Under the pieces are notes generated by a model, which was not told the origin of the DNA, did no database searches, and saw only the letters and a program-made list of their open reading frames with translations. From Polycladomyces zharkentensis (lineage in GTDB: Bacteria > Bacillota > Bacilli > Thermoactinomycetales > JIR-001), in the NCBI RefSeq assembly GCF_016938855.1, contig NZ_JAFHAP010000008.1:62280-126279 (forward strand): a stretch of 64,000 bases of DNA. The letters are read 5' to 3'. The position numbers and the translations under genes are program-made. This document shows positions 9,000-50,106 of this stretch, piece by piece; position 1 is the first letter of the stretch, and every line of letters starts with the position of its first letter.

Positions 9000-9299
9000 A
9001 TGAAATTGGAAATTACGCCGGAGGCACTGGATTGGTTTCGAAATGAACTGTCGCTGAACAAAGGGGATACGGTTCGGTTGCTGATACATTATCAGGAACA
9101 GGAAGCCCATTGTTTTGCAGGTACGGGTTTCTCCATGCGGTATTCATTGGAGAAACCGAGGAAGATCGGTTTATTGGCCGAGGTTGAGGGAATCACGTTT
9201 TTCATCGATGATGACGACCTGTTGTTCTACCCTGACGCTGATCGACTGCTGCTTCGGTATGACCGTGGAGAGGACAGGATTGTCTATCAAATGGACTAA
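9000..9299 (+). CDS. HesB/YneR-like iron-sulfur biogenesis fold protein
   Basis: The 99-residue product MKLEITPEALDWFRNELSL... followed by FSMRYSLEKP and EVEGITFFIDDDDLLFY matches the HesB-like group typified by B. subtilis YneR. This is the A-type cluster-carrier fold without the three conserved cysteines; only one Cys (near residue 38) is present. A role in Fe-S assembly is therefore not implied and the function is unknown. ATG 9000 follows GCAGGTGAG; five residues upstream in frame are discarded. A repeat element begins immediately after the stop codon. Confidence 0.8.
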   Translation: MKLEITPEALDWFRNELSLNKGDTVRLLIHYQEQEAHCFAGTGFSMRYSLEKPRKIGLLAEVEGITFFIDDDDLLFYPDADRLLLRYDRGEDRIVYQMD

Positions 9300-9519
9300 G
9301 GCGTGTCTGCACATCCGTAAAGGAGAAAATTTCCAGGCGAGCGACTTACCAAGTCCGGAAGAGCAAAGACCCGGAAAGCACAGGAACCGAATCACGGGCA
9401 ATTTCCGCTGAGCGACGTATTTTGCCCGTGTCCTGCGCTCACCGCGCAGCGATCATCGTTGAAGGGCGCAGGTGGAGCGAGGCGGGAAAGCGGTGCGATC
9501 CAAATTCACCAGACACGCC
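9300..9519 (+). repeat. Dispersed repeat family 1, copy 1 (MITE-like, structured)
   Basis: This 220-bp unit begins GGCGTGTCTG and ends CAGACACGCC, a perfect 10-bp terminal inverted repeat. It is clearly homologous along its whole length to 49728-49962, sharing for example GCAAAGACCCGGAAAGC and GGGCGCAGGTGGAGCGAG. Inside it, CACGGGCA (9393-9400) pairs with TGCCCGTG (9423-9430). It has no coding capacity. It could be a non-autonomous transposable element or a transcribed structured RNA/terminator; both copies start right after a gene's stop codon. Confidence 0.8.
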
Positions 9520-9642
9520 TCAGGCGGACTGAAGTGGGAGTTGGACCCTTGAACAAAGAAGGCGACTCCCTTTTTTCGTTTCTGTCCGATAACCAGTGTA
9601 GCCATTGCGCATACTAACGGAAAATAGCGAGGAGGATGCGTG

Positions 9643-48551: not shown

Positions 48552-49727
48552 GTGAAAGGGTTTGAACACCTGGAGCAGGAAATCGACCAATGGAAGAAAG
48601 AAGGAGTATTTCGTCCGCTGACGGAGCTGGAGTCGGATCAGGGTTCCAGGGTGATCATCCGCGGAAAAGAAGTGATTCAGCTCTCTTCCAACAACTATCT
48701 CGGTCTGACCACGCACCCCCGTCTGAAACAGGCGGCACTGGAAGGGGTGGAACGCTACGGTGCTGGAACCGGTTCGGTTCGGACCATCGCCGGCACTTTT
48801 TCCATGCACGAAAACTTTGAGAAGCGGCTGGCCGAATTCAAACATACGGAAGCGGCATTGGTGTTTCAATCCGGCTTTACGGCCAACGTCGGGGTGATTT
48901 CGTCCATCCTGACGGAAGAAGACGTGGTGATCAGTGATGCGCTCAACCATGCCAGCATCATCGACGGCATCCGTCTGACCAAGGCACAGCGAAGGATTTA
49001 TCGTCACGCCGATTTGGATGATCTGGAAGCGGCGCTGAAGGAAACGCAGTCAGCCCGCAAGCGGCTGATTGTCACCGACGGGGTTTTCAGCATGGATGGT
49101 GATATCGCACCGCTCCCGGACATCGTTGAGCTGGCCGAGAAGTATGATGCGTTGGTCATGGTGGACGATGCGCACGCCAGCGGTGTGTTGGGCAAAAACG
49201 GTCGCGGAACGGTGGACCATTTCGGTCTGCACGGACGGGTTCATATCCAAGTGGGTACGCTGTCCAAAGCGATCGGGGTGTTGGGCGGATATGTGGCCGG
49301 TCCGAAAGTATTGCGAGACTACCTCATTCACCGGGCGCGCCCGTTCCTGTTCAGCACCTCCCATCCGCCGGCCGTCACCGCGGCTTGTCAGGCGGCGTTG
49401 GATGTTCTGCTGGAAGAACCGGAATTGATCGACCGACTGTGGGATAACACCCGTTTCTTCAAACAAGGGTTGGAATCGCTTGGCTTCAACACCGGCAAGA
49501 GCGAGACTCCGATCACACCGGTCATCGTCGGTGAAGGGGCAAAGGCGATGGCGTTGTCTGACGCGTTATTTGAAGAGGGCGTCTACGCTCAGGGCATTGC
49601 TTATCCGACCGTCCCCAAAGGCGAGGCACGCGTTCGGACGATCGTGACCGCACAACATACCAAAGAAGAGCTGGAACAAGCGTTGCATGCATTTGAAAAA
49701 GCGGGCAAAAAACTGGGGATTATCTAG
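48552..49727 (+). CDS. kbl: 2-amino-3-ketobutyrate coenzyme A ligase (glycine C-acetyltransferase)
   Basis: Kbl converts 2-amino-3-ketobutyrate and CoA to glycine and acetyl-CoA, completing threonine breakdown begun by Tdh. The 391-residue alpha-oxoamine synthase has [31 protein letters not shown] and the PLP lysine in [16 protein letters not shown] 48552 after GAGGAGGGG gives the family N-terminus and length; ten residues upstream in frame are dropped. A repeat element begins at the base after its stop codon. Confidence 0.95.
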
Positions 49728-49962
49728 GGCGCGTCTGGTAAATCCGTAAGGGAGCAAATATTTTTCCCAAGTGAGAGACTGACCAAGCCCTGTCAAGCAA
49801 AGACCCGGAAAGCGCAGGAATGAAGTCGCGGGCAACTTCCTCTCAGCGAAGCGTACTGTGCCCGCGTCCTGTGCTCCGGTGTAGCGCCCATGACTTGCTT
49901 CCCTTGCAGGGCGCAGGTGGAGCGAGCCGGGAAAGCATTAGACAGTATTCACCAGACACGCT
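49728..49962 (+). repeat. Dispersed repeat family 1, copy 2 (MITE-like, structured)
   Basis: This 235-bp unit begins GGCGCGTCTGGT and ends CCAGACACGCTC and is homologous end to end with 9300-9519. The inner hairpin here is CGCGGGCA (49828-49835) with TGCCCGCG (49860-49867); relative to copy 1 one pair has changed from A-T to G-C on both sides. There is no coding frame of note. Confidence 0.8.
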
Positions 49963-50000
49963 CCAGAGGTTTCGTGAATGGGATACCGTTCATCCCTTGG

Positions 50001-50069: not shown

Positions 50070-50106
50070 AGCGCCTTCCGATTGATTCACGGAAGGCGCT
50101 TTTTTT
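50070..50106 (+). terminator. Intrinsic terminator upstream of the class II aldolase-like gene
   Basis: AGCGCCTTCCG (50070-50080) pairs with CGGAAGGCGCT (50090-50100), followed by a run of T to 50106. Confidence 0.85.

Follow-up and report, generated by a model that had tools for sequence, protein, structure and literature searches.

The pneumococcal repeat RUP (with IS630-Spn1), Correia/NEMIS and ERIC are short non-coding repeats that are located mostly between genes (PMC2229807). The MITE that we describe here from Polycladomyces is similar to these repeats in that its ends match those of an IS, TA is found at its termini and its transcripts can be folded (PMC2229807). It differs from them in that it is matched to an IS5-family transposase and in that MITEs with other ends contain the same interior; such sharing of an interior across end types is not reported for RUP, Correia/NEMIS or ERIC in the available text of PMC2229807. 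IS of the IS5 family (NF033580) are like the MITE with regard to ends of 14-19 bp and TA-flanked insertion, but the MITE has no transposase and beyond the ends its interior is unmatched. QMITE2 and other prokaryotic MITEs have terminal repeats, direct repeats and a folded core in common with the Polycladomyces MITE (PMC10969869), and the available part of the review that describes them contains neither a covariation test nor a core common to unrelated ends (PMC10969869). Our searches of the open-access PMC literature found no description of a covarying interior common to MITEs with unrelated ends. MITEs as such are known; a covarying interior in MITEs with unrelated ends is new as far as our literature searches go. 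The reading that we favor, with a probability of roughly 0.6, is that the repeats studied here are IS5-mobilised MITE copies with an ancient core that is kept as a DNA fold and is shared across MITE types.

Two MITE copies with IS5-type ends

The stretch of DNA analyzed (64,000 nucleotides of Polycladomyces zharkentensis; hereafter the window) contains two copies of the repeat, with termini and stems as described in the initial annotation and with best limits that comprise the element plus its TA target (Table 1). The genome of the window is referred to as G000, and two further genomes of Polycladomyces as G001 and G002. A blastn search with copy 1 yielded 41 matches in G000 and many more in G001 and G002, and an nhmmer profile applied to fetched DNA found at least 49, 26 and 22 places with scores > 60 in G000, G001 and G002, respectively, i.e., a copy number far beyond chance. 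With a length of approx. 240 bp, no transposase frame and 41 matches in its own genome, the repeat is short, transposase-free and multicopy, as MITEs are. Open reading frames of 30 aa or more overlap both elements; those located wholly inside an element are no longer than 38 aa.

Table 1. Location of the two MITE copies and of associated features in the window
Feature	Position	Strand	Remarks
MITE copy 1 (subfamily 4)	9297..9522	+	TA target to degraded TA; nhmmer 9297-9521, model 2-244
Copy 1 left terminal repeat TAAGGCGTGTCTG	9297..9309	+	Bases 1-3 form the upstream gene's stop codon
Copy 1 conserved folded core	9327..9491	+	Covariance model R1, 99.4 bits, E 6.6e-27; left out of the R1 build
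Copy 1 right terminal repeat	9504..9522	-	ATTCACCAGACACGCCTCA on +; matches IS end ATTCACCAGACACGCCCTA
Terminator-like hairpin GGGAGT...ACTCCC and T run, 3' of copy 1	9537..9576	+	Sequence reading
MITE copy 2 (subfamily 3)	49725..49965	+	nhmmer 49725-49964, model 2-244
Copy 2 left terminal repeat TAGGGCGCGTCTGGT	49725..49739	+	Bases 1-3 form the upstream gene's stop codon
Copy 2 conserved folded core	49761..49936	+	R1, 162.6 bits, E 2.3e-45; included in the R1 build alignment A3
Copy 2 right terminal repeat	49947..49965	-	ATTCACCAGACACGCTCCA on +; matches IS end
Terminator-like hairpin GCGCCTTCCG...CGGAAGGCGC and T run, approx. 105 nt past copy 2	50071..50106	+	Sequence reading

The consensus element reads TAGGGCGTGTCTGG...CCAGACACRCYCTA (termini also given as TAGGGCGTGTCTGG...CCAGACACGCCCTA) and is bounded by TA on both sides. 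Among 60 near-complete copies, TA was present at the left end in 33 and at the right end in 30, and most of the other ends were one transition away from it. A 936-bp IS in genome G010 is bounded by 19-bp ends (TAGGGCGTGTCTGGTGAAT) and contains two overlapping frames, which represent DUF4096 and DDE_Tnp_1 and which belong to the NCBIfam IS5 family transposase (NF033580; 138 and 162 bits, as compared to a cut-off of 110). The right end of the MITE (ATTCACCAGACACRCYCTA) agrees with the end of this IS; the ends that the two have in common are 14-19 bp long, and their interiors do not match. In G000, the IS end sits no more than approx. 20 nt from the end of several contigs, which break off inside the element, as is expected of a longer, highly repeated IS at which the assembly stopped. 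One G000 contig end extends approx. 76 nt into an IS related to the G010 IS, and contig C8 (L191) starts with an IS5 transposase fragment (88% identity). A reading frame located beside this fragment is presumably TnpB-like, of the IS605 type.

The window repeats are MITE copies that insert at TA and carry IS5-type ends, and a G010-type IS5 element, which we take to be of the IS427 subgroup, probably moves the MITE, judging from the shared ends. The suggestion, already present in the initial annotation, that the repeats might be a MITE is borne out by the IS-derived ends, the TA target, an element-free orthologous site (see below) and a complete IS that has these ends. The same annotation had named one outcome that would speak against selection on RNA shape, i.e., ends matching a known IS around an interior of deleted transposase sequence; an IS match was indeed found for the ends, but the interior is not a deletion derivative of transposase sequence. 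An IS630 or Tc1-mariner origin, as suggested by the TA target, was rejected, as the DDE_3 transposase domain PF13358 was represented by one fragment in G001 and was not found in G000 (present in one of the three genomes of the genus).

Insertion sites and the link to stop codons

The one clean element-free site was observed opposite G000 C10:112378, where the orthologous G001 site lacks the element exactly, to within approx. 2 bp. This is a cleaner case than the window copies, for which insertion polymorphism is only partial. The site of copy 2 is occupied at the same place and in the same orientation in G002 and is empty in G001; only the left one of the two junctions is exact, and the gene ends with TAA in G001 and with TAG in G000. 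The copy 1 site is occupied in G002 by a different, oppositely oriented element, and only a short remnant is present there in G001.

The initial annotation had placed the start of both copies immediately after a stop codon. While the association with stop codons holds, the copies overlap the stops (TAA at 9297-9299 and TAG at 49725-49727), because the target TA lies within a TAA or TAG stop that is completed by the first base of the element. The element ends that face the 3' end of a gene comprise 60 left ends, of which 15 were located at or inside the stop codon, and 41 right ends, of which 8 were; a few lay as far as 21 bases into the called frame (gene calls were made with a simple codon-usage script). 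Where neighbouring genes run in the same direction, 43 elements were found in sense and 23 in antisense orientation.

An RNA of the 3'-UTR or terminator-like kind that is under selection at its present location, as had been proposed, would be in keeping with the observation that each window copy has a stop codon before it and a terminator-like hairpin after it. We nevertheless consider this explanation hardly credible, as stop overlap is found at both ends of the element and follows from the TA target, as the occupancy of the two sites differs among genomes (an inverted different element or a remnant at the copy 1 site, no element at the copy 2 site in G001) and as the stems decay (see below). 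Since a crude scan detected a terminator-like hairpin within 130 nt downstream at only 3 of 24 loci outside the genus, a general position upstream of terminators is not claimed.

Comparisons among orthologous sites also showed that L009 (G000 C21:18475), L114 (G002 C35:127870) and L149 (G001 C1:443470) represent one element copy at an orthologous site. The L149 copy is inverted in G001 with identical junctions (shared rare states 10-14; rank 1 of 39 and of 43), i.e., this site represents an in-place inversion between the terminal repeats. Overall, orientation was opposed at 4 of 21 orthologous sites occupied among G000, G001 and G002. At many other occupied sites the occupants were not mutual closest relatives (for example, window copy 1 and its G002 counterpart have 0 shared rare states), as if orthologous sites had been re-occupied or converted.

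Neutral decay of resident copies

The initial annotation had pointed to two stems as signs of selection on RNA shape. A two-sided change is indeed present in the inner stem (CACGGGCA/TGCCCGTG in copy 1 and CGCGGGCA/TGCCCGCG in copy 2). At the facing position cited for the outer stem, however, copy 2 has a G-U pair and copy 1 an A-C mismatch, so that one of the two cited changes breaks a pair. In 69 copies (score ≥ 150, near full length), 88.1% of stem cells were paired as compared to 87.3% after shuffling.

We further used a strand test, in which RNA is taken to tolerate C to T changes in a G-C pair (yielding a wobble) and not G to A changes, while neutral DNA treats both equally. In the 100 of 151 places used for this test (score ≥ 150, near full length), stem transitions that kept or broke pairing numbered 15:17, 75:88 and 226:218 at variant frequencies of up to 2, 5 and 10%, respectively. 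In an SRP RNA control of 30 relatives (median divergence 0.23, as compared to 0.25 for the repeats), the kept:broken counts were 18:2 at 10% and 39:4 at 30%. As wobble-keeping and pair-breaking changes are equally frequent in the repeats (226:218 vs. 18:2 for SRP), selection on the RNA shape of resident copies is unsupported, and a strict model of selection on RNA in every copy, which fails the wobble strand test, was rejected. Resident Polycladomyces copies decay neutrally, with stems that are unprotected after insertion.

When variants of up to 30% were included for the 100 copies, 389 changes kept and 302 broke pairing (P = 0.001). In addition, the fold of subfamily 3 as compared to subfamily 2 showed 9 kept and 1 broken changes on the + strand vs. 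3 kept and 9 broken on the - strand. As the subfamily changes and the all-frequency counts favor + strand pairing, source copies may differ from dead ones; these leanings towards + strand wobble, which reflect few independent events, are a hint of RNA in source copies.

Subfamilies were obtained by Ward clustering on shared variants (average-linkage clustering yielded none that were useful). Subfamily 1 (including G000 C5:71396) is young, with 13 of its 14 members in G000 and blastn identities of mostly 92-97%, and represents a recent burst in the window's species; both window copies fall outside it. Two G001 elements of approx. 40 bp (L058 and L059) consist of little besides both terminal repeats.

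Age, spread and covariation of the core

The palindromic core of the element (approx. 178 nt) was also found, without Polycladomyces-type ends, in G035, which represents another family of the same order. When the Polycladomyces consensus fold was placed on the G035 core, two-sided changes kept pairing in 8 cases and broke it in 1, and there were 12 one-sided breaks. A covariance model (R1) built from 18 Polycladomyces and 2 G035 cores (alignment A3) was used to search 398 genomes drawn evenly from the class, and matches at E ≤ 0.01 were obtained in 49 genomes (including 4 that were R1's own sources) and in 21 of 146 genera. The matches listed span positions 1-178, usually with several per genome; at most 6 candidates were scored per genome, so that copy numbers are lower bounds, and R1 E-values are rough. 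The core is older than the genus Polycladomyces. One match was found in an Acidobacteria MAG when genome contigs were scanned for relatives, while plasmid and phage searches for relatives found none. No Rfam 15 match was obtained for the copy 1 region (E ≤ 1), the window (gathering scores) or 18 loci (E ≤ 0.1), and identity with HEARO or another Rfam RNA was rejected on this basis. Near-identical core copies in tandem, 364 and 299 bp apart, were observed at L237 and L249, respectively.

To assess covariation we used two alignments. In A4 (37 rows), which was fitted to the R1 structure, paired cells amounted to 87.4% vs. 66.0% after shuffling, with 417 vs. 132 two-sided changes and a score of 0.503 vs. 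0.161. In A5 (21 rows), a MAFFT alignment made without structure from which the structure was then predicted, two-sided kept changes were present at 22 of the 30 predicted pairs; paired cells amounted to 89.3% vs. 72.5% after shuffling, and the score was 0.474 vs. 0.177 (0.08-0.13 for slid versions). One pair of the long-range helix AGYCC/GGRCG, for example, is C-G in 8 and U-A in another 8 of the 21 rows. Conserved unpaired motifs (AGCGGA, GGAGCGGACAGT and CTTCCTTGCAGG) are also present. Pairing is weaker outside the central arm (approx. 72% for A4 helices 4 and 9), which implies that part of the structural model is wrong. The covariance-model check that had been recommended confirms covariation for the family as a whole.

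It could be argued that the element is an ordinary MITE only, with a fold that is a by-product of palindromic ends and with matches in other genera that are due to chance or convergence. Resident copies do decay neutrally and MITEs commonly fold (PMC2229807). This explanation is very improbable in our view, though, since matches cover the model from position 1 to 178 and occur in 49 of 398 genomes, mostly with several copies each, since unpaired sequence is shared as well, and since covariation exceeds that of both shuffled and slid controls.

Strand symmetry of the conserved fold

The cells of A5 comprise 541 Watson-Crick, 21 G·U and 20 A·C combinations, as compared to 2122, 424 and 22, respectively, for SRP. 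For the non-genus rows of A4, with the structure predicted per strand, G·U:A·C ratios were 30:20 and 44:33, and fold energies for the two strands were -104.3 and -104.1. Single-sequence MFE was lower on the + strand in 21 of 44 loci. Among the properties of structured non-coding RNAs, significant covariation was observed (in A5 and A4), while strand preference and Rfam 15 membership were not. As the core lacks the SRP-like G·U excess expected of a functional RNA, these data point to folded DNA. The fold has been maintained through Watson-Crick changes on both sides of a pair that show no preference for a strand, and what is conserved is most likely a DNA fold. This may be a cruciform or, if the DNA is single-stranded in the course of replication, a tree of hairpins.

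If the core were instead a structured RNA carried as MITE cargo, either a regulator or a component of a ribonucleoprotein, with mostly dead residents and a few functional source copies, this would account for strong covariation together with conserved unpaired motifs, for subfamily-level changes that preserve + strand pairing including wobble, and for the orientation of the elements (43 sense vs. 23 antisense). We regard such a cargo as unlikely given that G·U is not in excess over A·C, unlike in SRP, that rare variants have no wobble-preserving bias, that both strands fold with equal energy and that there are many copies per genome.

Several end types around one core

In addition to the Polycladomyces end type (TAGGGCGTGTCTGG, TA target), the core was found between several other kinds of termini. 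TGWAGACAAA...CTTTGTC ends occur in G309 (4 copies fetched), G262 (5 copies) and G081 (6 copies), and copies of this type lie between direct repeats that each include a complete hairpin. Direct-repeat scores were 23-28 for L256, L263, L266, L268, L269 and L270, as compared to a maximum of 11 in 44 mismatched flank pairs; the duplicated hairpin was recognized by eye in 4 of 4 G309 and 5 of 5 G262 copies and by score in 2 of 6 G081 copies. The G309 and G262 copies are thus inserted at hairpins, which are terminator hairpins. GCYGTAGTG...CACTACRGC ends are found in G238, which has an additional palindromic module of approx. 250 nt upstream, and in G333. CTAGAAGCGTTGTGA...TCACAACGCTTCTAG ends are found in G017 and G012 (with a perfect 15-bp repeat in L261), and CCAGGGCTGTTGATTA...TAATCAACACGCCTGG ends in G023. 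The ends in G238, G262, G333 and G023 are by-eye readings, and those of G238 were missed by the inverted-repeat finder. None of the other end types (TGWAGACAAA, GCYGTAGTG, GAAGCGTTGTGA and CCAGGGCTGTTGATTA) could be linked to a transposase. As shown by the R1 matches and these termini, the core is carried, outside the genus and in other families of the class, by MITEs with at least four unrelated types of terminal repeats.

IS1182-family elements (IS1272/TnSha1) are reported to target hairpins and terminators (PMC4923244) and thus resemble the G309 and G262 copies in their location at terminator hairpins. IS1272 reportedly deletes part of the hairpin without duplication, though (PMC4923244), whereas the G309 and G262 copies are flanked by duplicated hairpins. 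Hairpin targeting of the IS1182 kind would fit the G309/G262 end type.

Covariation could also arise without selection, if hairpin-templated correction (template switching in quasi-palindromes) at replication copies mutations from arm to arm. The covariation is Watson-Crick and strand-symmetric and recent mutations are still unpaired, as such correction would predict; the conserved unpaired motifs AGCGGA, GGAGCGGACAGT and CTTCCTTGCAGG and the presence of one core within several end types are left unexplained by it, and we consider it as doubtful as an RNA cargo.

Possible role of the DNA fold

Under the favored reading of a core kept as a DNA fold, the core, when extruded or single-stranded, would fold as DNA and would then bring the two short ends of the element side by side or, alternatively, bind a host DNA-structure protein. 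Either interaction would raise transposition by whichever transposase owns the ends; after insertion, the stems of a copy are unprotected and decay, as observed for Polycladomyces. To this mechanism, in which the fold juxtaposes short ends or binds a host DNA-structure protein, we give slightly less than an even chance. One core could serve several transposon types because the fold would aid any transposase that owns the ends. More tentatively, the core may represent a transposase-independent "fold module", i.e., an ancient, class-wide DNA structure that is present in unrelated MITEs and boosts their mobility by holding the ends or through a host protein that reads its shape.

MITE interiors are usually regarded as leftover or filler sequence. 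Here, one MITE interior shows conservation by paired changes across 21 sampled genera, is present within at least five kinds of ends and has the signature of folded DNA and not of RNA. Covariation by itself is no proof of RNA, and counting G·U against A·C cells provides a cheap additional test. If the favored reading is true, DNA shape can, independently of the transposase, contribute to the success of a MITE.
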